Shown here: piece after piece, positions 1,757 to 28,677 of the stretch
Position numbering within the stretch: the stretch's first letter is position 1
Layout: every line of letters starts with the position of its first letter
Virus record (IMG/VR): IMGVR_UViG_3300042691_036880
Location: 1 to 28,780 of that record
DNA from: a virus
Length of the DNA: 28,780 nt
Reading direction: 5' to 3' (one strand)
Position numbers and translations under genes: made by a program
The notes under the pieces: generated by a model
What the model was told of the DNA's origin: nothing
The model's input: the letters and a program-made list of their open reading frames with translations, nothing else
The model's database searches: none

Positions 1757-3519
1757 AATTCTGCTATTTTACTTGATAACTTATCAATAAAAGACTGCTT
1801 AACTTCATTTGAAGTTCTCTCAACATTTTGTCTTGCTGAGTCTAAAACTGAAGTTAATCTATTTGCAATTTTAAATTTAACGTCATCCATTGTAGACCTC
1901 ATTTTGTTTACGGTGGATGATTTTAACATACTTTCTAAACTATCATCAGTTACATTATCAGACTCAATACTTTTGTCAATTGCCGAACTAATTTTATCAG
2001 CAACAAACGTTGGGTCGGACAATAATCTTGTAACCTCTGAATCAGGCACACTATTTAATTCATTAGTGATTTCAATTCCAATCTTAGAAGAAGGTTCTAC
2101 TTTAAGTTCTCTTAGAATGTGATTGATTGTTTGTTCTTTCATCTTTGACTCATTCCCTAAAAATAAACTGTTAAATGCTTTCTCAAAAGTCGCTTCAATG
2201 TTCTCAGTTATAATTCCATTAGAATTTTGTAATGATTTTGTATGTTCCATTATTTGAGTTAAGAATTTTCTATAGTTTTGTGAATAGAAGTTCTCAGCGA
2301 TTTCATTTAATGATTTTTTGTGTATTTCAACTTTAAGAGATTTAACCATCTTAGTTTCAACCAATTTAGTTCTTAAAGAATTTTCAATAGATTTCATTTT
2401 ATTTTCAGTTAATTTATTTGCAGTTCTACTTGACAAATTAATTGCCCAATCACGGTCCGCGATTCTTTGGAACTTTCTTATTTTATTGGTTAATCCAGGA
2501 TGATATTTCACACAATAAAAAACTGCGTCTTTGGTTGAGTTCATTTTATTTATGAAATTATTTCTTGTCATTCCATAACTGTCAGTATCATATTTGTTAT
2601 ATGCACTATCATACATGTCAAGCAAATCTTTACACGCACTTCTTTCAGGTTGTTTAGCTCCTGTCTTAGACAATAATGACATGATATTAGTACCCTTATC
2701 AAACAAATTACTTAATTCGGCAATTACAGGTGCTCCTGATTCTATTTTTTGATAATCGGAAACAACACTATCTTGTTTACCTTGTTGGTATACATTATTG
2801 TACCAAAAATCAAATGCTTCTTTATAGACAACTTTTTTATCCTTACCCATAAATGAGTCTCTTTTTGTTGCCATGTATTTAACTAAAGGACTCTGATGAA
2901 TTGGGTCAGTTGTAATATATGGTTGAGATTCAATTGAACCGCATAATCCATGTAAAACTCCACCAGGACTAAAATAAAACTTCTTTGAGTTTATCCAATT
3001 GATAAATTCAGAAACACTACTTTCAATTCCGTATGTCTCAAAATAGTTCCCACTAGTCCATTTATCATCACAATTAATTTGTAATTTTGATGGTGTAGTT
3101 GTTGTTTGATTTGTCCCACCACCTTGCTGAGTTGTGTTTGTTTGATTGGACCCTCCAGTACTTTGTTGAGATGATGGTTTATTAATCTCATCTTGATATA
3201 TTTTACCGAACTCTTTCCACGCCTTTCTAATACAACTATTATCAGGTTTACCTGTTACAGATAAAGAAGAACCGTCATCACATTTAAAATCTGAATTATT
3301 TTTTTTCATCCATCCTCTAAACTCATTACCTTTAGTATCATCTAATCCTGTCGCTGGATATGATGAACCTCCTCCACCACCTCCTGATGTTTTTTTCTTC
3401 GCATACCATTTACCGTCAGCACCCTTTCTAACAGTATGAGTTCCAGCAGCATCTAATTGAGCTGCTTTATTTTTACTTACTTCTTCTTCACCTGATTTGG
3501 CCGGTTCATTTAACATCAT
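1753..3519 (-). CDS. Large alpha-helical putative virion/injected protein with FRxW module (588 aa)
   Basis: This gene is last in the minus-strand block of large genes. The start is coupled to the upstream stop (TAATG at 3521-3517), with a second in-frame ATG just after. In order: an acidic N-terminus, GTHTVRKGADGKWYAKKK, a six-Gly run near residue 46, an FRxW module at about 63-108 (NEFRGWMKKN ... SCIRKAWKEFG) that also occurs in the 782-aa protein, and a Gln/Thr/Ser/Gly-rich linker at about 115-145. A Cys-containing globular part follows, then a long helical C-terminal half rich in Lys, Glu and Ser. There is no membrane segment or catalytic motif, and unlike its neighbours no clear leader. 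I infer a structural or ejected virion protein from the context only. Confidence 0.8.
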   Translation of the reverse strand: MMLNEPAKSGEEEVSKNKAAQLDAAGTHTVRKGADGKWYAKKKTSGGGGGGSSYPATGLDDTKGNEFRGWMKKNNSDFKCDDGSSLSVTGKPDNSCIRKAWKEFGKIYQDEINKPSSQQSTGGSNQTNTTQQGGGTNQTTTTPSKLQINCDDKWTSGNYFETYGIESSVSEFINWINSKKFYFSPGGVLHGLCGSIESQPYITTDPIHQSPLVKYMATKRDSFMGKDKKVVYKEAFDFWYNNVYQQGKQDSVVSDYQKIESGAPVIAELSNLFDKGTNIMSLLSKTGAKQPERSACKDLLDMYDSAYNKYDTDSYGMTRNNFINKMNSTKDAVFYCVKYHPGLTNKIRKFQRIADRDWAINLSSRTANKLTENKMKSIENSLRTKLVETKMVKSLKVEIHKKSLNEIAENFYSQNYRKFLTQIMEHTKSLQNSNGIITENIEATFEKAFNSLFLGNESKMKEQTINHILRELKVEPSSKIGIEITNELNSVPDSEVTRLLSDPTFVADKISSAIDKSIESDNVTDDSLESMLKSSTVNKMRSTMDDVKFKIANRLTSVLDSARQNVERTSNEVKQSFIDKLSSKIAEF

Positions 3520-4988
3520 TACTTAAATGTTTTAGTTTTTTTATCATATTCATATCCAACAGTTGAATTTTCTGATGCGTAATAAAATCCATCTTCCTTC
3601 TTAACTCCATTTTCACCAACCTTATTACCCGGGGTTAGTTCATAAGATTTCCATTTTGATAAAATTTGGTCTTCAGTCTCCTCACCACTTTGTGATTCTC
3701 CTCCAAAATTTAATTCACTAGTTGGCAATCCCGCTTCTTCAAAATCTTTAATAGTTGCACCTTGTTTAATTAGTTCATTTGCGAATTTGATGTAGTCAGA
3801 ATTGTTTTGGTCATTATTTAACATTTCTTGTAGTTTCGCTTTAACTTCTTCGTCCTGTGGGGTTAATTGTGAAACAAATTGAGCTCCGTCAAGTAATTCC
3901 ATAACCCCATTAATAGGTAATGTAATACACCCACCTAAATCTTTAATTTGGCTTGATAATTCCCCATACATTGTTTTATATATCTCAAAGTCGGCACCTG
4001 ATTTAACAGCATAATCCCAAAGAACTTTCACTACCTTAACTATTAAACACATTTTAATTATAAAAATAGAATATGCCGCGATAACAAAAACTGATTTTGA
4101 CGGTTGTCCTTTATATAATTTAAGTAAACGTTCATATAGTTTAAATCTGTTAGCACTTTTAGTTACCATAGTCTGAACATTTGGTATCACATCAAAATAT
4201 GGGTTACTTTCAGAAATTGAATTTTTAATAGTATTTAATTGATTTGTAATATTCTCAGGGCTCCACAATTTAGGATTAGAAACTGCGGAATCATATAAAC
4301 CAACTAATTCATCATATTTAATATTTTTACCTTTGATTTTTCTTGAAAGTTCAGAAAATGCTGTGTCAATTTCAGGTTGTACCGATTTTTTAGGTATAGA
4401 ACTTAAATTAAGTTTATTAGTTATAATTTTTTTTAATTCATCGTCCATAGTTGATGAATTAATTGCATTTCTTAATTCAGTTAAATTATCAATCTGTTGG
4501 TTATATAATTTAGGATTTTTTACACTGTCAATATTTTTAAAACCCTGTACTGATGATAATAATTGAGATACTTCTTTAAACTCACCAGAAGTAATCATAT
4601 CATCAACTAATTTTGAATAAAATGAGTCGTTTCGTTTAATAACGTCATCTAATAACGAATACCAATTAACCCCACCACCAATATTTGACAATGACTCACC
4701 TGAAATTAATTCATCATTAATTGTTCTTAAATAACTATCAATATCTTGTGGAGACGCACTGGATAAATTAAATTCCTTAGTTATCCACGGTCTAACCGCA
4801 TCATACGCAGCTTCATCCATGATATCGTCTGAAACTCCATCCATATTTCTAGTTGCACTTTCAATAATGTCTTTCATTAATGATTCAAACCATGGCTGTC
4901 CGATACTTTCTAAAATTACATTTTTAGGAGATACTCCCATTATTTCATGTAATCTTTTTATTTCTTCAAATAATAAATTTGTATTCAT
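3519..4988 (-). CDS. Leader-bearing putative virion protein with one membrane segment (489 aa)
   Basis: The N-terminus MNTNLLFEEIKRLHEIMG is a leader of the type shared across this window, followed by VILES, a hydrophobic-x-Glu site. The body is helical and acidic. A hydrophobic stretch at about residues 298-325 (VFVIAAYSIFIIKMCLIVKVV) can span a membrane. The C-terminal 40 residues (from about SKWKSYELTPGN) are Lys/Gly/Tyr-rich. The ATATTTAT element lies 17 bp upstream, in the tail of the preceding gene. The stop is coupled to the next gene by TAATG. A leader, a membrane segment and co-transcription with two other large proteins suggest an internal virion or injected protein; this is inference. 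Confidence 0.85.
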   Translation of the reverse strand: MNTNLLFEEIKRLHEIMGVSPKNVILESIGQPWFESLMKDIIESATRNMDGVSDDIMDEAAYDAVRPWITKEFNLSSASPQDIDSYLRTINDELISGESLSNIGGGVNWYSLLDDVIKRNDSFYSKLVDDMITSGEFKEVSQLLSSVQGFKNIDSVKNPKLYNQQIDNLTELRNAINSSTMDDELKKIITNKLNLSSIPKKSVQPEIDTAFSELSRKIKGKNIKYDELVGLYDSAVSNPKLWSPENITNQLNTIKNSISESNPYFDVIPNVQTMVTKSANRFKLYERLLKLYKGQPSKSVFVIAAYSIFIIKMCLIVKVVKVLWDYAVKSGADFEIYKTMYGELSSQIKDLGGCITLPINGVMELLDGAQFVSQLTPQDEEVKAKLQEMLNNDQNNSDYIKFANELIKQGATIKDFEEAGLPTSELNFGGESQSGEETEDQILSKWKSYELTPGNKVGENGVKKEDGFYYASENSTVGYEYDKKTKTFK

Positions 4989-8442: not shown

Positions 8443-8907
8443 TTAGATAATCTTCTTAAACCACTTTAGTGACTCTTGTATTTGTTCTGAGACTAATGGA
8501 GCCTTTGATTTTAGGTTAACGTTCTCCTCAATCTCTTCCATTGTATACATTTTGTTTGAGCATTCACATGTTTCACCTTCATACATCTCACCACACTCGT
8601 TACACTCTTTTTTAGATTCACTCATTTTACCTGACATACATTCACAAGTTTCAGCTTCATAAATCTCGCCACACTCATTACAAGTTTTCATTAATTTTTT
8701 ATTAATGTTTGTATGTTTGTATTCCATTACTTCACCTTTATTATTAACCGTAATTCCACCTTCATCTAATGCGTAATTACCGACAGTCAGAGGTGTCTCA
8801 CTAGGTCCTTTACCTTCACGAGTCACATAACCATCATATAGTTTAGTGTGTTTTTCCTTAATGGAATTTTTTTCTTCTTCAGATATGTTTAAAAAATAAG
8901 CTCTCAT
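8443..8907 (-). CDS. Leader-bearing protein with duplicated Cys-rich zinc knuckle (154 aa)
   Basis: The N-terminus MRAYFLNISEEEKNSIKEKH matches the SEEEK-I-H type of leader. Residues 76-90 (CNECGEIYEAETCEC) are repeated at 102-116 (CNECGEMYEGETCEC). Each copy holds a CxxC and a CxC and could bind one zinc ion. The C-terminal tail is helical. The function is unknown. An ATATTTAT element stands 14 bp upstream. The leader suggests packaging with the virion, and the knuckles suggest binding of nucleic acid or protein. Confidence 0.85.
   Translation of the reverse strand: MRAYFLNISEEEKNSIKEKHTKLYDGYVTREGKGPSETPLTVGNYALDEGGITVNNKGEVMEYKHTNINKKLMKTCNECGEIYEAETCECMSGKMSESKKECNECGEMYEGETCECSNKMYTMEEIEENVNLKSKAPLVSEQIQESLKWFKKII
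8560..8682 (-). repeat. Internal duplication coding for two Cys-rich knuckles
   Basis: Two copies of a 45-base coding unit, 8638-8682 and 8560-8604 on the minus strand, separated by 33 bases. They encode 15-residue segments that differ at two positions. Confidence 0.8.
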
Positions 8908-11190: not shown

Positions 11191-11787
11191 TTACCAATAA
11201 CCTGGATATGTTTTTCCACCCCACAAATGTCCAAAACGATTAAGACGACATGCCCAATAACCTGCGGTCATTCTATCTTTCTTGTCTTTACAGTTATGTC
11301 TTGATGCAAACGCCTTACGAGCTTTAGGGTTAGATACTTTAGCGGTTAGACCACCCTTAACATCTCCAAATGATATTTTTTTAACTCTTCCTGTAGATGG
11401 GTTTTTAACGTATACTACATATTTTTTTCCACCACCTGTATTTCTTCTTGGTTTACCCAATTCCACTTTTTTACCATTATATTCCGCCTCATTAATAAAT
11501 TCCTCAGATAATGGTATGTCTAAATAAACTTCTTTTCCACTTGATAATCTAACCTTTGCACCCAAATCGGTCTCAATTAATTCAACCTCTTCATCACTTA
11601 ATTCAATATTACCATTCTCATATAAATCACGAACTTCGTTAATTAAACTAAAGAAAGAATCGGAATGTGGACGATATATGTTTTCAGTTAATGGTATATT
11701 GTTTTTTAAATGGTAATTCAAACCTTCAGAAACTAATAATTCATTACTTTCCTTTAACACTTTTTTAATCAAATTATCAATTCTCAT
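11191..11787 (-). CDS. Leader-bearing protein with basic C-terminal domain of T4-like phage type (198 aa)
   Basis: Leader MRIDNLIKKVLKESNELLVS, with KVLKE and LLVSE as hydrophobic-x-Glu sites and a further PLTE near 35. Residues 60-100 are acidic. From about 108 a basic domain follows: KYVVYVKNPSTGRVKKISFG, then NPKARKAFASRHNC, then TAGYWACRLNRF. From memory this (VYVK.P.TG..KK..FGD / ARK.F.ARH.C / A.YWSC) is a small domain common in T4-like marine phages, listed I believe as DUF5872; the name should be checked. The Cys and His residues suggest a metal site. The start overlaps the upstream gene by 4 bp. Probably a virion protein. Confidence 0.8.
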   Translation of the reverse strand: MRIDNLIKKVLKESNELLVSEGLNYHLKNNIPLTENIYRPHSDSFFSLINEVRDLYENGNIELSDEEVELIETDLGAKVRLSSGKEVYLDIPLSEEFINEAEYNGKKVELGKPRRNTGGGKKYVVYVKNPSTGRVKKISFGDVKGGLTAKVSNPKARKAFASRHNCKDKKDRMTAGYWACRLNRFGHLWGGKTYPGYW

Positions 11788-12107: not shown

Positions 12108-12650
12108 ATGAAAAACTTATTCCTTTCTTTAGTGTTAGTTTTAACAAGTTTATGTTCATTTGGGCAAGTTAAAAAAGAATTTGTTGCATTGACTGAGGTT
12201 GAGCAATTAGTCTTCAAAAAAATAAATGACTATCGAGTTAAAAACGGATTAAAGTCAATTATTTGGTGTCCTAACTCATACAAATCAGCATACCATCACT
12301 CCTACTACTTGTCAGACCCAAATGTTGAAATTTCACACTTTGAGCCGGAAGATGTTGAAGGTATTGATGAAATTAACACTCATAACGACAGAATTTGTGG
12401 GGTTTTAAATTCACCTGGGGTTGTTAGTGTTGAAAACGTAATGACAGTCCAAGCGTCCGACCGTTGGCTTAATAGAAAAGATTGTGATGGTAAAAAAACA
12501 ACATCCGATTTTATTTTTAAAGCTTGGTATGAATCTGATAGTCATAACAAGGCAATGTTAAATCCGTCTATGACACATGGGTCAATTGCTATTGTTAGAG
12601 AAAAGGATGGTAATTATTGCAGACCTGTAATGGTATTCTATAAAAAATAA
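12108..12650 (+). CDS. Secreted CAP/SCP-domain (PR-1-like) protein
   Basis: A 180-aa protein with a signal peptide (MKNLFLSLVLVLTSLCSFGQ, cut likely near FGQ at 18-20, a typical Bacteroidota form). The CAP fold signals are visible: helix EQLVFKKINDYRVKNGLKS, His63/His64 in AYHHSYYL, ENV at 109-111 and AWYESDSHNKAMLNPSMTHG with His146. The family's cavity tetrad is two His and two acids, and most of it is present. Bacterial CAP proteins are secreted; their activities are mostly unknown, with proposed peptidase, lipid or wall roles. It is transcribed from a host-type promoter and ends at a strong terminator, so it stands alone. In a phage it probably acts in the host periplasm. Confidence 0.9.
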   Translation: MKNLFLSLVLVLTSLCSFGQVKKEFVALTEVEQLVFKKINDYRVKNGLKSIIWCPNSYKSAYHHSYYLSDPNVEISHFEPEDVEGIDEINTHNDRICGVLNSPGVVSVENVMTVQASDRWLNRKDCDGKKTTSDFIFKAWYESDSHNKAMLNPSMTHGSIAIVREKDGNYCRPVMVFYKK

Positions 12651-13836: not shown

Positions 13837-14442
13837 TTAATTAGTCCAAATATTAATTTCAACCCATTGGTCATTTAAATATTTTGGGTCCTGTGGGTTA
13901 TCAACACCTTGTTTATAAGGTATTGAACCTTGTTTATATCTCCCACTTACTGATGACATTCCTTTTGGCCAAGATGGTAACTTTTCTAATTGACTTCTAA
14001 AGTAATCTCCAAGTGTCCCCCCTCTTTTTTGAGATAAAGTATTAACATCTGAACCTGTCTTAGGAGTCTGTGACTCTGAAGCCACCCAACTAATTTGAAA
14101 TGGTTTGTTTGATTTCGATAAATATTCTTTAGCCTTTGTTAAAAAGTTTTGAACTTCCTGAAAGTTTCTAATGGAATCTTTATCAAGTCCTGTTTTACCC
14201 GTATTAAAATAAAATTTATTATTTAACTTTAAAACATCTTTTAGATTTTGTTTACTAGCAGCCGATGACGTGCCGGTCTTAACATCCACACTTGTGTTTG
14301 GCGTTACCGGTCCTCCAGTTGACGGGGGGTCCGTTTCATTAATTTGGGACTCTGAAATCAAATATCCATTTTTTGTTGCGGACAAATGCATTTCAATAAT
14401 TCGTTGTCTTTCACTATCGTCAATTGTAAATAAATTTTTCAT
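13837..14442 (-). CDS. Leader-bearing OmpA-like protein (201 aa)
   Basis: Start at 14442 (MKNLFTIDDSERQRIIEMH), giving the MKNLF leader; the upstream extension is not sensible. The leader ends GYLISE near residue 33, a hydrophobic-x-Glu site, followed by a Thr/Ser/Pro linker. Residues about 72-201 follow the OmpA C-terminal pattern: KFYFNTGKTGLDKDS, a helix FLTKAKEYLSKS, FQISWVASES, then NTLSQKRGGTLGDYFRSQL, then WVEINIW. The classical OmpA Asp and Arg for diaminopimelate binding are not clear, so binding to peptidoglycan is uncertain. It is one of two adjacent OmpA-like proteins with separate leaders. Confidence 0.8.
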   Translation of the reverse strand: MKNLFTIDDSERQRIIEMHLSATKNGYLISESQINETDPPSTGGPVTPNTSVDVKTGTSSAASKQNLKDVLKLNNKFYFNTGKTGLDKDSIRNFQEVQNFLTKAKEYLSKSNKPFQISWVASESQTPKTGSDVNTLSQKRGGTLGDYFRSQLEKLPSWPKGMSSVSGRYKQGSIPYKQGVDNPQDPKYLNDQWVEINIWTN

Positions 14443-14458
14443 ATTAAAACATTTTATA

Positions 14459-14965: not shown

Positions 14966-15727
14966 ATGACACGAAAAGAAAAACAAGTTGACAAAGTTTT
15001 AAAAACAATAACTGAAGGTAAACAACATCTTTTAGTTGAGAATCCATTACTTATGGGTTTATTAAGAATGGGATTAATGAATTACTTATTTGGTGATGCG
15101 GTTAAAACACAAGTAGATAAAGTAATTCAAAAATATCCTGAATTATCTCCAACCGAGTTATTAAAAAAGGCAGGGTTAGATGTTACCGCTTCTGACAAAG
15201 ATGTTGAGGAGTACACAAAAGATAGTTATTTAAGTAAATCTGAAAAAGAAAAATTAGGACTTGGTGATACTTCTTATGGTGTCGGAGCAATGAGTTCAAA
15301 TAATGATAACAAATTTTATGAAAGAGTTTTGAAGGATTTAGGAGCACCTGTCACTGATGGGAACATTACATTCTTAAAGGCAATTAGACAGGCGGAAGGA
15401 GCTAAAGCAAGATACAATCCATTTAATACAACTATGAAAAAAATGGGGTCATCTTGTTATAATGTCTTAAAGAGAGATAATTTTGGTGGATGTAAATCAG
15501 GAGTTCAAAATTATATGAGTGAGGAGGATGGAATTGACGCAACTGTTGAGACTTTAAAATTGGGTTACTATAAAGATATTGTTAACGGATTTAAAAATGA
15601 CGTAGGTCCTAAGGAATTATCAAAAAGATGGGCGTCATCACCATGGGGAACAGGAGACTTAGTTAAAAAAGTTGTTGATTCCTACTTAAAGGGTGCTAAA
15701 CCATCTCCACCACCTATTGCTCGTTAA
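14966..15727 (+). CDS. Leader-bearing peptidoglycan hydrolase (lysozyme/transglycosylase-like, 253 aa)
   Basis: The N-terminus MTRKEKQVDKVLKTITEGKQ followed by HLLVEN gives a leader and hydrophobic-x-Glu site at about 25. A hydrophobic patch (LLMGLLRMGLMNYLFG) and helical linker follow. Residues about 130-245 form a domain I know from phage wall-degrading proteins: FLKAIRQAEGAKARYNPFNTT, SGVQNYMSEEDGIDATVETL and GYYKDIV, then WGTGDLVKKV. Glu144 in AEG is the likely catalytic acid. The product should cut the peptidoglycan glycan chain. With its leader it is probably virion-borne and used at entry rather than as the main endolysin. It ends 14 bp into the convergent 15714-15950 gene. Confidence 0.75.
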   Translation: MTRKEKQVDKVLKTITEGKQHLLVENPLLMGLLRMGLMNYLFGDAVKTQVDKVIQKYPELSPTELLKKAGLDVTASDKDVEEYTKDSYLSKSEKEKLGLGDTSYGVGAMSSNNDNKFYERVLKDLGAPVTDGNITFLKAIRQAEGAKARYNPFNTTMKKMGSSCYNVLKRDNFGGCKSGVQNYMSEEDGIDATVETLKLGYYKDIVNGFKNDVGPKELSKRWASSPWGTGDLVKKVVDSYLKGAKPSPPPIAR

Positions 15728-15950
15728 TTAACGAATATTTCTTAATTTTTCTATCAAGATGTTGATTTAATTGGTCTACAAAAAAATTAAATCCGTCTTC
15801 ATTGACTGAATCAAAATCATCGGACCAATGTTTGTTCTTATACTGTTTAATTAAATTTTCACAACATTCAATTTGAGTATACGATGTTACAGAGTCAATT
15901 ATTTTTTTAACCCATTCAAAATCTTTTTCCATTGGGCTAATATAAGTCAT
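15714..15950 (-). CDS. Hypothetical protein (78 aa)
   Basis: Helical, starting MTYISPMEKDFEWVKKIIDS, with a Cys pair (IECCENLIKQY). The start overlaps the stop of the metallopeptidase-like gene (TAATG), so the two are translationally coupled; the Met at residue 7 is an alternative start. No family recognised. Confidence 0.7.
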   Translation of the reverse strand: MTYISPMEKDFEWVKKIIDSVTSYTQIECCENLIKQYKNKHWSDDFDSVNEDGFNFFVDQLNQHLDRKIKKYSLINEQ

Positions 15951-16333
15951 TAGTTATATAACAAAGCAACGTACTGAGGATATTTTTTCTCAAATACTCT
16001 TGCCATAATTCCGGCTTCAGTATTTGCATAATCTTCTTGTGATTGAGTATTATACCCTTGTAACTTTATTTTTCTTTGTCTTGCAAATTCATGAGTCCAT
16101 TCATGAGCAATTGTTCTAATAATATCAAGTAACATTCTATTATCCGCCAAAACCTTAATTAAACCCGTTATCTCGCTACCGGTTGACATAGCCCCCATTC
16201 TCTCACTCATTAAAATAATCTCAACGTCTCTTTTAAGTGGTGAGTTTTCTTGGGCGAATTTTAAAAAATCTCTAATAACCTGAATCTTATCTTGCCCTAA
16301 ATCTTTTACTCTATTTACAATTTTAACTTTCAT
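15950..16333 (-). CDS. HExxH zinc metallopeptidase-like protein (127 aa)
   Basis: Residues 77-81 read HEWTH in the helix RTIAHEWTHEFARQ, the zincin motif with two His zinc ligands and the catalytic Glu78. EDYANTEAGIMARVF (100-114) offers a third ligand Glu about 20-25 residues later, as in minimal phage and ICE-type metallopeptidases. There is no signal peptide or membrane segment. A target cannot be named. It could process phage or host proteins, or be an entry factor, as its neighbour is a wall hydrolase. An ATATTTAT element lies 4 bp upstream of the start. It is co-transcribed with 15714-15950. Confidence 0.85.
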   Translation of the reverse strand: MKVKIVNRVKDLGQDKIQVIRDFLKFAQENSPLKRDVEIILMSERMGAMSTGSEITGLIKVLADNRMLLDIIRTIAHEWTHEFARQRKIKLQGYNTQSQEDYANTEAGIMARVFEKKYPQYVALLYN

Positions 16334-17381: not shown

Positions 17382-18092
17382 ATGGGAATATCAGAATTGA
17401 GAGATTATTTGGAAACCGAGGTTTCAAAAAAGATGATAAAATTATTATCTAAAATCATGAAGAGTTATAATAGAGAACGTCTCTATCAAACAATTACAAT
17501 ATATAATGGTGATGATGTTAATTATTATTTTTCACCTCATACAGAATCGGGCTCAATTGAACTTCCTCCATCTATAACAAATTATTTAGACAATCTTTAT
17601 GAAAAAATATCTAATATGGATATTGAAAGTAATGAAGATGATGTTAACTATTCAACAATAGAAGTTATTTTTGATTTTGATGACGACGTGTTTAAAGTAT
17701 GGATGACTGATTACGTATACGAAACTCAATCGTTTTCAACTGAAAGTGAGTTAGATGAAAACGATGAAAAAGAAATTATTGAAACTTTAAACCAATGGTT
17801 GAGTGAAGGTCATAAATTTGTTAAAGTTGATTATAGTGGAGGTGGTGATAGTGGATATATTGAAAGTAATGGATATGGTGAAGGTGGGATTAATGATATT
17901 GGAATTCCAGCAGGTTTTGAGGACTATATCTATCAAATGCTTGAATCAAATTACGGTGGGTGGGAAATAAATGAAGGTTCTCAAGGAACCTTCATAATTA
18001 ATACTGAAGAAAAGACTGTTACTTTAGAACACAACATGAACGATGAACGTCCTGTTGATAGTGAGTTACTAAAAGTACATTTAAACTATTAA
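17382..18092 (+). CDS. Acidic hypothetical protein (236 aa)
   Basis: Begins MGISELRDYLETEVSKKMIK. Rich in Asp, Glu, Tyr and Asn, with beta-type segments (TIEVIFDFDDDVFKVWMTD) and a Gly-rich turn YSGGGDSGYIESNGYGEGG. No catalytic motif, signal or membrane segment, and no family recognised. It converges with the leader gene 18089-18415, overlapping by 4 bp. Confidence 0.8.
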   Translation: MGISELRDYLETEVSKKMIKLLSKIMKSYNRERLYQTITIYNGDDVNYYFSPHTESGSIELPPSITNYLDNLYEKISNMDIESNEDDVNYSTIEVIFDFDDDVFKVWMTDYVYETQSFSTESELDENDEKEIIETLNQWLSEGHKFVKVDYSGGGDSGYIESNGYGEGGINDIGIPAGFEDYIYQMLESNYGGWEINEGSQGTFIINTEEKTVTLEHNMNDERPVDSELLKVHLNY

Positions 18093-18415
18093 TAAACTTG
18101 TATTGTTCTTTGTGGTCTGTCATCACCAAAATCAGGACAGAAATATACATTTACTCCGTCGTGATAGATTGCACCACCAACACCATTAGGTATCTTGTGT
18201 TTCTCATGGAATTTATCACCTAAGTCAATTTGATAATTTCCATCAGCAACTTTTATACACTTATTTTCCATTTCGTAACCACAATGATATTGTTGGTTTT
18301 TATTTTTATGTTTCATAAATTCATCAAATGACATTACAAATGATGCATTTTCATTCATTACTTTTTTAACAACTTTTCCTAATTGTCTTTCTGTTATCAA
18401 AATATTCTTTTTCAT
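18089..18415 (-). CDS. Leader-bearing small protein (108 aa)
   Basis: The leader MKKNILITERQLGKVVKKVM, then NE, is the ITExQL-VVKKV type. VMNE near residue 21 is the hydrophobic-x-Glu site. The body (about 85 aa) has YHCGYEMENKCIKVADGNYQ and GGAIYHDGVNVYFCPDFG, beta-rich with three Cys. No known family. Its ATATTTAT element overlaps the stop codon of the PPK2-lysozyme gene just upstream. Confidence 0.8.
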   Translation of the reverse strand: MKKNILITERQLGKVVKKVMNENASFVMSFDEFMKHKNKNQQYHCGYEMENKCIKVADGNYQIDLGDKFHEKHKIPNGVGGAIYHDGVNVYFCPDFGDDRPQRTIQVY

Positions 18416-18421
18416 ATTACT

Positions 18422-18429
18422 ATAAATAT
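18422..18429 (-). promoter_or_regulatory. ATATTTAT late-type element of gene 18089-18415
   Basis: Exact ATATTTAT in gene orientation, 6 bp before the ATG at 18415, touching the stop codon of the preceding gene. Confidence 0.55.
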
Positions 18430-20147
18430 TAACTTATATTATAATTACCATTAAGATACATTTCCGCTTCAGAATTTCTTCTGTTAACTAATCCCTGTAA
18501 TCCTAATGTTTTAAAATTTCTAATCTGTTCCGCAGCCCTTTTATGGTCTCCTTTCTTAACTGACTGAATGAAGTCAGATTGTCTAACCCCACCACATCCA
18601 GCATTAAACGCTAATGACACTAATGCGTCAAATTGACCCTGAGTTATCATATAACTTTTAAGTCCTTTTGATTTCCATTCAGATAAAAAATTCCTAACAC
18701 AGTCCGCAAACTCTTTAGCATCATTGTATAGTAATTTTAAAGCCCTTGTTTCATCTATAGTCATTCCCATTCTAACATCATCACCAGTGTGACCCCATCC
18801 AATAGTTGCAACACCAACGCTGTCTTTATATGCTTGTAATGCCGGCTTGCCCTTTAATTTTGCCAATCCCTCGGCGTACTTAATATGGTCCCAAAAATCC
18901 TGACTAACTTTCATTTTAGTACCATCTTGTAAATTACTTTCCTCAGGTACGTCTACAGGTTTTACAATTGGTTGTGGTTTATCATACTTTGTCATAGTAC
19001 TATCCGACGCTGCGGTAATATCAGGCATTTTTATTTTTTGCTCATTAACTTCAGGTTTCAATACCGTCATGGACTCAGGAAATTCTTTACTTAAAAATTC
19101 TCTGTTTTTACCCTTATATGGAATATTTTGTAAAACGTATCTAATTGCATTTAAACCTGATACTCTCTTATCATTGGCATCCAATATTACCCAAGGGTGA
19201 TTAACCGTTGAGGTTTTGTCAAATAATTTTTGTTTAAACTCTGAGAATCGGTCCCACATGTCTTGCATTTTCTCGTCATTAGGGGAGTATTTCCAATACT
19301 TTAATGGTGACGCTTGTCTCATCTGAAATCTAGTTGCCTGAGTCTCCTTATCAATTGAGAACCATAATTTAAACAAATAATCTCCATCTTTAACTAAGTC
19401 TTTTTCAAAGTCTTCAACGTTTTCCATAAAGTCTTCATATTCCTCTGGAGAACCGTATCCCATCACTGGTTCAACAAGTCCTCTATTATACCAACTTCTA
19501 TCAAAGAAATTAATCATTCCTTTTCTAATTTGACTTCTATATCTATCCCACCATGCTTTTCTCTCCTCAGGTGTTGGTATTCCCAATGCAATGATGTTGT
19601 AATATCTTGGATTTAAATTCTCAGTGTACTTTTTAATAGTTGAACCCTTACCCGCAGAATCTCTACCCTCAAAAACAATTATGACAGTTTTACCGGTACT
19701 TTTAATCCACTCTTGCATTTTAAGTAACTCAACTTGTAAATGATATAACTCCTCGTTATAAACTTTCTTTTTAATTAATGAAGGTTCTTGTGGTTCAAAT
19801 GAAAACTCTTCAAAATCAGGTTCGTTACTTATGAAATCTTCTTTTTTTCTTTTCTTTAATACCTTTATAATATTTTCAAAATACTTGGTAATGTTTTTTT
19901 CTTTATTACCTTTTTTCATTAAAACATTTCTAACATTTCTCTCAAGTAAGTCAAAATTAATGGTTTGATTAAAACCCATATCCATAATATCATACAATAG
20001 AATCTCAAGGTTCTTTGTGTAGATATTATATTGTTTTAGAATATCCGCAATCTCATTCTCATATTGTTCTGTCGGTTTCTCCTCTTCGTTTAATTGAGTT
20101 CCGAGTAATTGTTTGTATCTGCTGATTTCAGAAATTAATTTTTTCAT
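18429..20147 (-). CDS. Leader - polyphosphate kinase 2 (PPK2) - GH24 lysozyme fusion (572 aa)
   Basis: The leader MKKLISEISRYKQLLGTQLN, then EE, has QLNE as candidate cut site. A helical region runs to about 130. Residues 140-345 are a complete PPK2 domain: Walker A GRDSAGKG (161-168), LNPRYYNIIALG, WWDRYRSQI, Walker B FFDRSWYNRGLVEPVMGYG (214-231) and WKYSPNDEKMQDMWDRF. PPK2 moves phosphate between polyphosphate and nucleotides. A linker (350-412) is followed by a GH24 lysozyme (415-570): Glu426 in YAEGL, AYKDSVGVATIGWGHTG with Asp442 and Thr448 spaced as Asp20 and Thr26 of T4 lysozyme, AFNAGCGG, and RRNSEAEMY at the end. Both active sites look intact, and no frameshift separates them. The combination is new to me. 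Confidence 0.93.
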   Translation of the reverse strand: MKKLISEISRYKQLLGTQLNEEEKPTEQYENEIADILKQYNIYTKNLEILLYDIMDMGFNQTINFDLLERNVRNVLMKKGNKEKNITKYFENIIKVLKKRKKEDFISNEPDFEEFSFEPQEPSLIKKKVYNEELYHLQVELLKMQEWIKSTGKTVIIVFEGRDSAGKGSTIKKYTENLNPRYYNIIALGIPTPEERKAWWDRYRSQIRKGMINFFDRSWYNRGLVEPVMGYGSPEEYEDFMENVEDFEKDLVKDGDYLFKLWFSIDKETQATRFQMRQASPLKYWKYSPNDEKMQDMWDRFSEFKQKLFDKTSTVNHPWVILDANDKRVSGLNAIRYVLQNIPYKGKNREFLSKEFPESMTVLKPEVNEQKIKMPDITAASDSTMTKYDKPQPIVKPVDVPEESNLQDGTKMKVSQDFWDHIKYAEGLAKLKGKPALQAYKDSVGVATIGWGHTGDDVRMGMTIDETRALKLLYNDAKEFADCVRNFLSEWKSKGLKSYMITQGQFDALVSLAFNAGCGGVRQSDFIQSVKKGDHKRAAEQIRNFKTLGLQGLVNRRNSEAEMYLNGNYNIS

Positions 20148-20152
20148 ATAAT

Positions 20153-20160
20153 ATAAATAT
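20153..20160 (-). promoter_or_regulatory. ATATTTAT late-type element of the PPK2-lysozyme gene
   Basis: Exact ATATTTAT in gene orientation, 5 bp before the ATG at 20147. Confidence 0.6.
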
Positions 20161-20317: not shown

Positions 20318-21145
20318 ATGAAAGACACAAAAACTTATGACGAGTTAGTTCAAAAAATGAGAACATTCTTCCAAGAAAAAGGATTTAAAGAAGTTCCAAC
20401 ACAATCAAGATTGTCAATTTTGGCAGCATGTGAGAATCCTCACTCAATAACAACATTCAATTATCAAGGAGAAGTTTGGCCGTTACCACAGACAGGTCAA
20501 ATGTGGTTAGAATACGAACTTCTTAAAAATCCTGAATGGAATGGTGTATATTGTATCTCAACATCATATAGACAAGAGAAGGACCCAATTCCTGGAAGAC
20601 ATGAATTAATTTTCCCTATGTTTGAATTTGAATCAAAAGGAGGAATGAAAGAAATGATAAAACTTGAATCTGAACTTTTGGATTACTTAGGGTTTGATAA
20701 ACCAATTGAGGTTAACTACGATGATGTTTGTGAAGAATATGGTGGAGTCCCAATTTTAGAAAACGAACATGAAACAAGAATGTGGGAAGAGAAAGGTCCT
20801 GTTGTTTCTCTTCAGAATTTCCCATACAGAACCAATCCATTTTGGAATATGCGAGAAAGTGAAAATAGAATATTCAATAAAGTTGATGTGATTCTCTACG
20901 GACAAGAAACAATTGGTTCGGCAGAAAGAAGTTCTAATGTAGAAGAAATGAGAAATAACTTCTACACTATTGAAAACGGTGGATATTCTGCCAAACTATT
21001 TGAACTATTCGGTAAAGAAAGAGTTGAGAAAGAATTAGAAGAATTCCTATCGTTTGATTTCTTCCCTCGTTTTGGTGGAGGAATCGGAATGACAAGACTC
21101 GCAAGAGCTTATCAGTTAATGATGGAAGAAGTAGAAACTGTATAA
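20318..21145 (+). CDS. Class II aminoacyl-tRNA-synthetase-like enzyme (AsnRS/AspRS-type catalytic core only)
   Basis: A 275-aa protein with the class II core but no N-terminal anticodon-binding OB domain. Motif 2 is SYRQEKDPIPGRHELIFPMF (83-102), with Arg85 and Glu87. Motif 3 is FGGGIGMTRLARA (252-264), with the ATP-binding Arg260. A conserved-looking stretch YGQETIGSAERSSNVEEM lies between. Aspartate/asparagine-type enzymes of this size are known that make free amino acids (archaeal-type asparagine synthetase) or aminoacylate other substrates, so tRNA charging is unlikely. A-rich sequence without a Shine-Dalgarno precedes the ATG; a terminator hairpin follows the gene. The preceding Asn-rich leader frame would fit an asparagine-linked role, but this is inference. 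Confidence 0.85.
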   Translation: MKDTKTYDELVQKMRTFFQEKGFKEVPTQSRLSILAACENPHSITTFNYQGEVWPLPQTGQMWLEYELLKNPEWNGVYCISTSYRQEKDPIPGRHELIFPMFEFESKGGMKEMIKLESELLDYLGFDKPIEVNYDDVCEEYGGVPILENEHETRMWEEKGPVVSLQNFPYRTNPFWNMRESENRIFNKVDVILYGQETIGSAERSSNVEEMRNNFYTIENGGYSAKLFELFGKERVEKELEEFLSFDFFPRFGGGIGMTRLARAYQLMMEEVETV

Positions 21146-21428: not shown

Positions 21429-21905
21429 TTAAAATCTTACAGGTGGTACCACAACAGTTCCTCCACCGCCACAAGGACATCCGCATTTCTTTTGCCAATA
21501 TGACGGCCATTTACATGGATTAGCACAAGTAGACGCACAATTTCCAGGTGCAATATCTTCTTTTACATCTCCATCGCGTTGTAATCTTTTTTTCTTTCTT
21601 TGTTCTCCGATTTCACCACCATTATCGTTAGATTGCATGTCTTTAATTGCTGACATCATTTCTTTCGCCTCTTTTTTCTTACCTGACTTCATTAATTCTT
21701 TAGCGTATGCTTTAAGGATGTCATACCCGGCAATACCTAATAAACCAATTGTAGTTCCAACAATTGTTAAAATTGCATCACCTGTTTCCAACGCTACCGG
21801 TAAATACTCCTGCTCATTTACTGATTTTTTTCTTTTTGTTTCAGTTACCAAATTTTTGATTAAATCTGTTAATTCAGATTCTGTTAGTCTTATTTTCTTT
21901 TTCAT
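21429..21905 (-). CDS. Leader-bearing single-pass protein with Cys-rich C-terminus (158 aa)
   Basis: The leader MKKKIRLTESELTDLIKNLV, then TE, is the RLTESxL type; LVTE and SVNE are candidate cut sites. A hydrophobic segment at about 43-63 (DAILTIVGTTIGLLGIAGY) is followed by a Lys-rich helix. The end has seven Cys within about 25 residues (NCASTCANPC ... KKCGCPCGGGG) followed by VVVPPVRF. This could be a metal-binding or disulfide-linked tail. It follows the 308-aa leader gene by 1 bp, in one operon. Confidence 0.8.
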   Translation of the reverse strand: MKKKIRLTESELTDLIKNLVTETKRKKSVNEQEYLPVALETGDAILTIVGTTIGLLGIAGYDILKAYAKELMKSGKKKEAKEMMSAIKDMQSNDNGGEIGEQRKKKRLQRDGDVKEDIAPGNCASTCANPCKWPSYWQKKCGCPCGGGGTVVVPPVRF

Positions 21906-21906
21906 T

Positions 21907-22833
21907 TTATATATTATTACAACATTTAGTCTTATTTAATAAATACTTAGATAGTTCACTTTGGTATAAAAAACCTTCATTTGTTTTTCTTTTTTCCTTA
22001 CTATTTTTTTGGAAATATTTAAACACCACTCTACCACAATCATATATTACATACGATTTTTCATTACTTTCAACGTCAGTCATTTCCATTTCAACAGTTA
22101 AATAATCATCTTCCTGAATATACGTAGCGTTTACAACTTTAAAAATTTTTGGTTCTTTAATTTTCCTATCTTCAAAAATATAAGTTTTACCAATTAAAAA
22201 TTCTAATTCTGACGGTACCTCTACAATCTTGTCTAATTCTAATGTTAATATTTCCTTATCTTTATTCTCTTTAAATTTATCGTCTATCACATATTGTTTG
22301 TCAGTATATCCGTCTTTAGTTATTATAATATTAAAGTCGTAGGTACTGTCAAATTTAACTTTCCCATCACTGTTAGTTTTTAAAGTCACATCCTCACCTA
22401 ATTTATTTTTTGTTTGTATAACACACTCAGGTAGTGGGGACTTAGACACCGAGTCAACAATCAGTAAATCAAATTGGTTTACCCGTATTTCAAGTGTTTT
22501 CAATGACAATGAATCTTTAAGTGTCACATTAATTTCAGTTTCGTCAATTTTAGGAGTAATTTCTTGAGGCTCCATTCCAACAAATGTTACGTTTACTGAA
22601 GGTCCAACAAAATTGTTTAAGATTCCAATTCCATTTACATCCGTCACCGCTCCGTTTGTCCTGTCTCCAGAATCAATCACCGTAACAAATTCTAATGGTT
22701 TATTACGTTCATCAAAAACTTTAATTTTTAATGTTCTTTTTTCCTCAAATAAATATTGCTTATTTAACGCATTAATATGCATTTCTAAAATTCTATCTCT
22801 TTCTTCAGATGAAATCTCAAATAAATTTTTCAT
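21907..22833 (-). CDS. Leader-bearing protein with two carboxypeptidase-regulatory-like (Ig-fold) domains (308 aa)
   Basis: The leader MKNLFEISSEERDRILEMH then YLFEE is the best example of the MKNLF type. Residues about 34-105 (KIKVFDERNKPLEFVTVIDS, TDVNGIGILNN, VTFVGMEPQEI) have the pattern of the CarboxypepD_reg beta-sandwich known from Bacteroidota outer-membrane proteins. Residues about 118-200 (VDSVSKSPLPECVIQTK ... NSDGKVKFDSTYDFNIIITK) look like a second copy. The C-terminal 100 residues are beta-rich with two final Cys. The likely role is structural or binding, on the virion surface or at the host envelope. Confidence 0.8.
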   Translation of the reverse strand: MKNLFEISSEERDRILEMHINALNKQYLFEEKRTLKIKVFDERNKPLEFVTVIDSGDRTNGAVTDVNGIGILNNFVGPSVNVTFVGMEPQEITPKIDETEINVTLKDSLSLKTLEIRVNQFDLLIVDSVSKSPLPECVIQTKNKLGEDVTLKTNSDGKVKFDSTYDFNIIITKDGYTDKQYVIDDKFKENKDKEILTLELDKIVEVPSELEFLIGKTYIFEDRKIKEPKIFKVVNATYIQEDDYLTVEMEMTDVESNEKSYVIYDCGRVVFKYFQKNSKEKRKTNEGFLYQSELSKYLLNKTKCCNNI

Positions 22834-24225: not shown

Positions 24226-24531
24226 TTACTTTTCACATTCCGATGCGTGACTATATACCTCAAATGGAAATGGTATCATAGATTTTAAATATTCTTTAAC
24301 ATTATCTCTAATATACCCTGAACGTAATGATGACCAATTATCATTCAATACCCATTCCTTGTTTAATAGGGTATACACATCAAAAATTGAATCTTCCTCG
24401 TCAATTCTATCTTCATTTAGAAACGCTCTAAAACCACAAATTCTATCATCAGATGAAAAATAACTATTAAGTTGTTCTTCCACCTTTCTGATGATTTTTT
24501 TACTTTGTTCTTGTGTGATTTTATATTTCAT
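24226..24531 (-). CDS. Leader-bearing small protein (101 aa), paralogue of the next
   Basis: The leader MKYKITQEQSKKIIRKVEEQ is of the IT-xQ-xxI type. The body has an N-terminal Cys strand RICGFRAFLNED, a central KEWV and an ending SECEK. The same layout is seen in the neighbour at 24536-24838 (EICKFEV, KKWV, SDKC), so the two are diverged duplicates. Unknown function. It starts 4 bp after the neighbour's stop. Confidence 0.75.
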   Translation of the reverse strand: MKYKITQEQSKKIIRKVEEQLNSYFSSDDRICGFRAFLNEDRIDEEDSIFDVYTLLNKEWVLNDNWSSLRSGYIRDNVKEYLKSMIPFPFEVYSHASECEK

Positions 24532-24535
24532 TAAA

Positions 24536-24838
24536 TTAACATTTGTCAGAATAAGGTAATATTGTCAAATAAATATCATACTTATCTTGTATAAAATTTA
24601 TAGAATCTTTAATTAAAGATTTTAATTCTTCTTTACCCTCAAAACCTTTTTTACTCATTTTACTATTAACCCATTTCTTATCAATTCTAAGTTTAACAGT
24701 TGGGTTAATGTCAAAATCTTCATCAGGAATTACCTCAAATTTACAAATCTCATATCTGTTATGAAATTCTTTATTTAAATCTGAGACAATACCGATAAGT
24801 ATTTTATTTTTTTGAGATTCGGTGATTACAAGTTTCAT
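24536..24838 (-). CDS. Leader-bearing small protein (100 aa), paralogue of the previous
   Basis: Leader MKLVITESQKNKILIGIVSD, ITESQ type, followed by DLNKE as candidate cut site. A Cys strand, KKWV and a C-terminal DKC follow. The start overlaps the stop of the 38-aa basic gene as ATGA. Its weak similarity to 24226-24531 is confined to layout and a few residues, so the duplication is old. Confidence 0.75.
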   Translation of the reverse strand: MKLVITESQKNKILIGIVSDLNKEFHNRYEICKFEVIPDEDFDINPTVKLRIDKKWVNSKMSKKGFEGKEELKSLIKDSINFIQDKYDIYLTILPYSDKC

Positions 24839-27376: not shown

Positions 27377-28132
27377 TTATCGTCCAAGTAATCTATTGAT
27401 TATATTATTTGTTTTTTTAGTTTCTGCAAATTTTATCCTTGGGATTTTTATATTATTCTCCTTTTCGTATTTGGCGATTAAATCCATAAGAATATTTTTT
27501 GGCGCGTAATTGGTAAGTTTGTTCAGTAAGTGTTGATAATTATATGGTGTTTTATTTTCACGAGCGTCTGTTCTATAATCAGAGATAAATTTAAAAATTA
27601 CTTTTTCCAGTTTAGGATTGTGTTCCTTATAATCAACTTCAATATTTTTATTTTGGACTAAATCAGGAACTTTTAAGGCCGCAATTCCCGTAATTGCCCC
27701 AACAATCAATGGGATAATACTGGTATCATCGGGTTGATGACGTATATATGACGTGGTCATGTCAAGTAACCCGTATACACCTGAAGTTACCGAAATATTG
27801 ATTAAATTTGATAAACTAAGTTTATCAAGTATGTTTTGAAGTCGTTCTCTTTCTTCTTCATTTGCAACTTTAAAATTACCTTTAGAATAAGATATGGTTT
27901 CATTAACCTCTTCACTAAACTGAGATTCAATTTCATCTTCAACAGTTTCTTCAAATCCCTCTTTACCTAACTTATTGTATAACTTACCAAGAAACAATAA
28001 GTCGTCATTAGACAATGTTTGAATAATCTCCTGTTTAATTTCACTTGCAACTTTTTGTTCTTCGTTCTCACGAATAACACGTTTAACAATGTTTGTCAAA
28101 TCCGACTCGGTTAATCTAATAACTTTACTCAT
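27377..28132 (-). CDS. Leader-bearing protein with one hydrophobic segment (251 aa)
   Basis: The leader SKVIRLTESDLTNIVKRVIR, then EN, is nearly identical to that of the upstream gene. The body is acidic and helical, with a hydrophobic segment near 145-160 (IIPLIVGAITGIAALKV) and a Lys-rich end (NIKIPRIKFAETKKTNNIIN). No catalytic motif seen. It follows the 180-aa leader gene by 2 bp, in one operon. Confidence 0.8.
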   Translation of the reverse strand: MSKVIRLTESDLTNIVKRVIRENEEQKVASEIKQEIIQTLSNDDLLFLGKLYNKLGKEGFEETVEDEIESQFSEEVNETISYSKGNFKVANEEERERLQNILDKLSLSNLINISVTSGVYGLLDMTTSYIRHQPDDTSIIPLIVGAITGIAALKVPDLVQNKNIEVDYKEHNPKLEKVIFKFISDYRTDARENKTPYNYQHLLNKLTNYAPKNILMDLIAKYEKENNIKIPRIKFAETKKTNNIINRLLGR

Positions 28133-28134
28133 AA

Positions 28135-28677
28135 TTATTTTTTACCTAAATCTCTCATCATTTTTGAGATGTTATATGGGTTGTCAAGAGATGATACTCT
28201 ACCTCTATTACTTTCATCACTATAACGAATTTTTGGAGCCCTCTCCGCAACCAAATTGGCAATTTTCTTGATAAATCCTTTAGAAAAAATCTTAATTGGA
28301 TTTTTACCATTTTTACCAGTGTGATTAATAATTATGAGTGGTCTTAACCCTGTATGCTTAAGAACAGATGCCGGATAATATATATCAATATCTAAAAACT
28401 CACCAAAAGGGCTAACTCTAATAACAAAATGTTTGTTGTCATCTGTATCAGGATTATTTGATATTGTTCTAAGTATTTCATAATCACCGCTCTTAACTTT
28501 CTCAAGTATCCCATTGGCAAGGTATTCCATTGTTGATGATTCATTCTCAACACCAAACAATGAATGGAAAGAACCACTTAATTTATCTCCAAATGTGAAC
28601 GCGCTATCTTCTTGGATTACTCGTTTAACGATATTAACTAAATCTGACTCGGTTAATCTGATTATTTTTTCACTCAT
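28135..28677 (-). CDS. Leader-bearing protein (180 aa)
   Basis: Leader SEKIIRLTESDLVNIVKRVI, then QED as cut site. The body has a beta-rich core (HFVIRVSPFGEFLDIDIYY, PLIIINHTGK) and a basic C-terminal half (IKIFSKGFIKKIANLVAERA). No family recognised. An ATATTTAT element is 14 bp upstream. Confidence 0.8.
   Translation of the reverse strand: MSEKIIRLTESDLVNIVKRVIQEDSAFTFGDKLSGSFHSLFGVENESSTMEYLANGILEKVKSGDYEILRTISNNPDTDDNKHFVIRVSPFGEFLDIDIYYPASVLKHTGLRPLIIINHTGKNGKNPIKIFSKGFIKKIANLVAERAPKIRYSDESNRGRVSSLDNPYNISKMMRDLGKK

Follow-up and report, generated by a model that had tools for sequence, protein, structure and literature searches.

Why would a phage place a polyphosphate kinase and a lysozyme in one polypeptide, and where in the infection would such a protein act? 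The question is raised by an open reading frame at 18429-20147 on the minus strand of the window, a 28,780-base IMG/VR virus record that is a fragment (28.8 kb) of a phage genome. The frame, for which the first-pass annotation gave no strand, is indeed the single uninterrupted one described there, running from ATG to TAA over 572 aa and joining a polyphosphate kinase 2 (PPK2) to a GH24 lysozyme behind a short leader. We consider it reasonably probable that a T4-like jumbo phage makes it as a cargo polyprotein, which is packaged in the head, cut into PPK2 and lysozyme, and ejected into the host.

Two enzymes in one frame

From its N terminus the protein comprises a class A leader (residues 1-21, MKKLISE-ISRYKQLLGTQLNE; 20085-20147), a helical domain (residues 26-100; 19848-20072), a PPK2 domain (residues 126-348; 19104-19772), a linker (residues 364-411; 18915-19058) and a lysozyme (residues 412-572; 18432-18914), all on the minus strand. 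The helical domain, which is predicted with confidence to be helical, is phage-specific and kept through the family (FDLLERGLRK.LLKKGDKKKN), and a weaker form of it recurs in two giant phages; a comparison with PDB folds returned no match (best E 1.3). The full-length AlphaFold model is poor past residue 366 (pLDDT <50 throughout 367-481) because the alignment is shallow, and domain packing is therefore left out of our claims.

Pfam places PPK2 at residues 126-348 (E 5.7e-71), and the kinase is intact, as had been claimed, with Walker A (GRDSAGKG, residues 161-168; 19644-19667, minus strand), DRSWYNR (residues 216-222; 19482-19502, minus strand), D163, K167, R217 and R277 all present. FtPPK2 depends on K66, R118 and R178 for its activity and for binding polyphosphate (PMC8776046); these residues correspond to K167, R217 and R277 of the fusion protein, and the catalytic Asp to D163. 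The class I signature of PPK2 is an Asn after Walker B (PMC8776046), found here as N221 in DRSWYN. A Foldseek search with the AlphaFold model finds the kinase part closest to F. tularensis PPK2 (5llf, E 6e-20), and the class I enzymes of F. tularensis (4yeg/5ll0) and S. meliloti (3czq/6dzg) are ~44% identical to it over the kinase, sharing the Walker A Asp, the class I Asn of DRSWYNR and the polyphosphate-binding Lys and Arg residues. Unlike these enzymes, the fusion kinase is preceded by a leader and the ~75-residue helical domain and, in its own clade, is followed by a lysozyme. We assign it to class I PPK2, and its family and residues predict that it uses polyphosphate. PPK2 reactions are reversible, and so the enzyme may instead synthesize polyphosphate, or deplete the polyphosphate that serves the host as a stress signal.

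The C-terminal half is, as judged from its sequence, a GH24 lysozyme that is predicted to cut peptidoglycan (Phage_lysozyme/GH24, PF00959, residues 437-560, E 5e-30). Its Glu, Asp and Thr are present as E426, D442 and T448, consistent with the intact enzyme first proposed. In T4 lysozyme the Glu-Asp spacing is 9 and the Asp-Thr spacing 6; the initial description of a T4 spacing holds for Asp-Thr (6) but not for Glu-Asp, which at 16 has a seven-residue insertion. PF00959 and the Glu/Asp/Thr residues are common to the fused lysozyme and to GH24 phage lysozymes at large (phi29/PZA, P21-type endolysins, T4 lysozyme), with phi29-group endolysins ~35% identical to it; it is set apart by the seven additional residues relative to T4 lysozyme and by its position behind a leader or PPK2.

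The linker and the lysozyme behind it

In one related contig (L147) the window's lysozyme occupies the same locus with a class A leader immediately before it and without PPK2, of which there is none anywhere in the 19.6-kb contig. The joint in the window, ...LKPEVNE↓QKIKMPDI, can be set against the end of that leader, ...SGINE↓QKITMPDI, such that a predicted prohead-protease site, V-N-E369↓Q (19041-19049, minus strand), aligns with the leader end of the unfused lysozyme. In L148-L158 the leader that precedes a related GH24 is of class C and has the junction LME↓QK, and separate leader-bearing lysozymes have the junctions ...IILE↓QKSDPKN (L007) and ...LLNE↓QNRDPKN (L010). In a second type of fusion, PPK2 is joined at the same point to a PF18013 lysozyme (L003 and L004, 660 aa; NINE↓TEGADPKN) or to a different GH24 (L005, 649 aa, on a 208-kb contig; HLNE↓TEGADPKN). 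The lysozyme module thus keeps an x-E site at its start whether it stands behind a leader or behind PPK2, and release of free lysozyme by a prohead protease is therefore favoured. Only 4 of 79 leaders have Val at P3, as the window linker does, so that the argument for complete cleavage at this site is weaker. Between the two linker sites suggested at first pass, KPEVNEQ is the favoured one, VNE↓Q coinciding with INE↓Q at the L147 leader end, whereas PEESN is not indicated.

Cleavage at VNE↓Q is accordingly preferred to an uncleaved enzyme, in which the protein would be packaged by its leader but never cut in the linker, leaving PPK2 tethered to lysozyme as one bifunctional virion enzyme. Such an enzyme would suit the uninterrupted frame and the retention of fusions in four other contigs, but we judge it unlikely, given that both types of fusion retain a protease-type site at the former end of the lysozyme leader, that relatives express the two enzymes as separate proteins, and that the linker region has very low predicted order, itself a reading of the poor part of the AlphaFold model.

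A cleaved product could still be an ordinary endolysin acting at the end of infection, with PPK2 as a passenger or metabolic gene and a leader unrelated to the virion. The top PHROG for the fused lysozyme is the endolysin family phrog_7 (2.5e-40), and in G003 the fused lysozyme is the only PF00959 match found. Yet leaders of the same kinds occur on more than 100 mostly unrelated proteins, most relatives are leader-bearing PPK2s without a fused lysozyme, and the start of the fusion protein has neither a hydrophobic signal nor a SAR helix. G004 moreover encodes a second, untagged GH24 of endolysin size, so that a leader-tagged lysozyme need not be the endolysin, and every close GH24 relative read at full length carries a leader, either alone or behind PPK2. 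We regard the endolysin explanation as quite unlikely, and prefer a lysozyme that is carried in the head and acts at entry.

Leaders, protease and capsid

Five classes of leader were modelled from seeds, stretches from inside the same proteins served as controls, and a leader was found near the start of 147 of 1057 proteins (window, G003, G004 and G015) compared with 2 of 2459 controls per class. Since the seeds had been picked by visual inspection, a stricter test was made with a class A model trained on 16 leaders, none of them from a PPK2 protein; counting the motif in leader proteins is likewise circular in part. This model gave the window leader 18.9 bits against 6.6 for the best of 2459 internal controls, and for 54 of 57 PPK2 leaders its score exceeded that of all controls, which upholds the virion-type leader of the first-pass annotation. 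With no selection for leaders, [IL]xE with its Glu at residues 7-9 occurs at ~2.5x background in each of three genomes. An alignment of 79 tagged proteins has the common site I/L/V/M-x-E (P3 Ile in 39, Leu in 35, Val in 4 and Met in 1; Glu in 78 of 79) ahead of mature parts that are nearly all unrelated, and many leader genes encode small proteins of unknown role. The window leader, a predicted capsid targeting sequence, has the sites I-S-E7 and L-N-E21, the second of which almost all of 56 PPK2 relatives retain. The L/I-x-E motif is short and present elsewhere in the fusion protein too.

T4 gp21 cleaves after L/I-X-E, the N-terminal propeptides (10-19 residues) of T4 internal proteins are capsid targeting sequences (CTS), and fusion of a foreign protein to T4 IPIII or its CTS leads to its packaging and its delivery into cells (PMC9026906). 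The gp21-cut propeptides of IPI, IPII, IPIII and Alt are, as here, short N-terminal tags ending in L/I-x-E, and in T4 as in these phages unrelated mature proteins stand behind one kind of tag. Also as in T4, there is a gp21-type protease (Peptidase_S77, in 12 of 16 relative records) and gp23 (9 of 16), both found in the relatives of the window, which is itself a fragment. The gp23 of these relatives has an invariant L-I-N-E↓A/S at residue 60, near the 65-residue length of the propeptide that T4 gp23 loses on maturation (PMC9026906). Unlike the handful in T4, however, these phages have tens of tagged proteins per genome, and unlike the T4 internal proteins the predicted cargo includes PPK2, lysozymes and a polyprotein that is itself cleavable at an internal site, as its sequence suggests. 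As regards tag, protease and capsid type the fusion protein qualifies as a T4-type internal head protein, and its presence in the virion is predicted.

The leaders might instead direct proteins to another site in the cell, for example a replication compartment or a membrane, since they are defined from sequence alone and many of the tagged proteins are short and have no assigned function. This we hold to be improbable: the leader ends in the gp21 cleavage motif, the same site occurs in the gp23 of phages that also have a gp21-type protease, and the T4 capsid-targeting tags are of similar length. The wider claim is that T4-like jumbo phages carry a large capsid-targeted cargo set (~35-50 genes per genome) that includes virion-delivered class I PPK2. 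It takes in jointly the cleavable leaders, often with an upstream TATTTAT, a PPK2 that burns host polyphosphate in the first minutes of infection, and, in some lineages, a polyprotein from which the prohead protease frees a lysozyme; so stated, we see it as evenly poised between true and false.

The upstream element precedes the fusion gene at -12 (TATTTAT in AATATTTATATTAT-ATG; 20153-20159, minus strand) and is common to leader genes. In the upstream regions of the window, G003, G004 and G015, in which the ATATTTAT(A) element was tallied, ATATTTAT stands before 53 of 128 leader genes versus 99 of 878 others (Fisher p 3e-15), and it is absent before gp23. The T4 late-promoter consensus is TATAAATA; on the sense strand it is not enriched before leader genes and was rejected as a candidate, while its reverse complement, TATTTATA, is enriched.

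The nearest named gp23 proteins include those of Rhodothermus phage RM378 and Flavobacterium phage immuto, and similar aquatic jumbo phages, the 'moraphages', are predicted to infect Flavobacteriia (PMC12619734); the host is therefore probably a member of the Bacteroidota. The isolated T4-like phage immuto has leaders in only 2 of 207 ORFs and was rejected as a cultured model, the leader set being essentially absent; no cultured phage with the leader system was found in this analysis.

Eleven further genes in the window carry leaders of the same kinds, such that it resembles a cargo island. One of them encodes a 108-aa class B leader protein downstream of the fusion (18089-18415, minus strand) and keeps its synteny both in the fusion clade and in the lineages sister to it; the others, also on the minus strand, lie at 3519-4988, 8443-8907, 11191-11787, 13837-14448, 21429-21905, 21907-22833, 24226-24531, 24536-24838, 27377-28132 and 28135-28677. 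The product of a gene at 14966-15727 (plus strand) begins much as a leader does (VDKVLKTITEGKQHLLVEN) and matches no Pfam family above the cut-off; L002 and L005 have this gene in synteny. Among the leader-tagged proteins, one matches Acb1 (E 5e-4), a possible virion-delivered counter-defence; at G003:C1:127550-127729 (L176) a match to anti-CBASS Acb1 scores 19.9 bits, under the Pfam cut-off.

History of the fusion and a proposed pathway

Most of 80 related viral loci match residues 1-366 only. A separate contig (L002) has the same 572-aa fusion, 90% identical over the full length; the PPK2+GH24 architecture is thus not unique to this phage, L005 being another case, and most relatives have the two proteins separate or PPK2 alone. 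In the tree all five fusions (window, L002-L005) fall in one clade, a leader with PPK2 alone is the wider state, and sister lineages have either PPK2 alone (L006) or PPK2 with a separate leader-bearing lysozyme as the very next gene (L007, L010). The fusion may have originated when a leader-bearing lysozyme gene 3' of a leader-bearing PPK2 gene lost its start and retained its cleavage site; a single fusion followed by lysozyme exchange and two separate fusions both fit. A divergent class II aminoacyl-tRNA-synthetase-like gene (20318-21145, plus strand; a window protein matches PF00152) adjoins in 8 of 8 relatives searched. Although the window is a single metagenomic contig, an assembly chimera or missed stop is vanishingly improbable and was rejected in view of the independent contig L002, the analogous fusions of L003-L005 and synteny unbroken on both sides, and the missed stop, frameshift or chimera against which the first-pass annotation had cautioned is excluded as far as sequence can do so.

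A scan of genome contigs gave no cellular relatives of the fusion protein, none of the plasmid records reaches 80% coverage of it (the best matches being on the PPK2 half), and no GenBank phage covers 80% of the protein. The literature searched holds no report of PPK2 joined to a lysozyme or of PPK2 in jumbo phages, and describes neither the fusion nor a tagged set of this size. Metagenomic phages of 634-735 kb (LR756502, LR745206 and LR756501) encode an unannotated PPK2 that is 50-52% identical. In LR756502 (L160, 642 kb) and LR756501 (L161, 735 kb) it is extended at the N terminus by a region that can be aligned with the helical domain of the fusion, and in LR756502 it begins with a leader-like FIKFINEE, as in leader-bearing PPK2s; unlike the window, these two phages have no lysozyme fusion, and the giant-phage PPK2s are distant on the tree. 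Neighbours of the LR756502 gene start MENIKSFDSFNEKK and MKYLKRFNEELD, perhaps another class of tag.

From the anatomy of the protein, the kinship of its leader, the conservation of its sites, the protease and gp23 of its relatives and the history of the fusion, all of which are read in the sequences, we infer a pathway of five steps. The leader would act as a T4-type capsid targeting sequence and load the protein into the prohead core (step 1), where a gp21-type (S77) protease would cut after L/I-x-E, taking the leader off at E7 or E21, and after V367-N368-E369 in the linker, yielding mature PPK2 and free GH24 lysozyme (step 2). Both would leave the head with the DNA and pass into the host (step 3), the lysozyme opening peptidoglycan at entry (step 4), and the class I PPK2 would convert NDPs to NTPs with host polyphosphate, as an immediate supply of energy and nucleotides (step 5). 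Head-internal muralytic ejection proteins such as T7 gp16 embody the same, established idea, in which the head holds a wall-cutting enzyme for release at entry, but they differ in fold and have no CTS. If the proposed pathway is correct, the few injected proteins of T4 extend to a large tagged cargo repertoire readable from sequence alone, polyphosphate, a host store, becomes a direct fuel of phage takeover, and the polyprotein shows a prohead protease freeing several enzymes from one packaged chain.

Two other genes in the window deserve mention. A small protein encoded at 15950-16333 (minus strand) has an HEWTH motif and is perhaps a zinc peptidase; DUF6055 is matched by one window protein at 1e-5, for which this gene is the candidate. 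The gene at 12108-12650 (plus strand) has a signal-peptide-like start followed by an apparent CAP/SCP domain, and is the candidate for the one window protein that matches CAP (3e-9).
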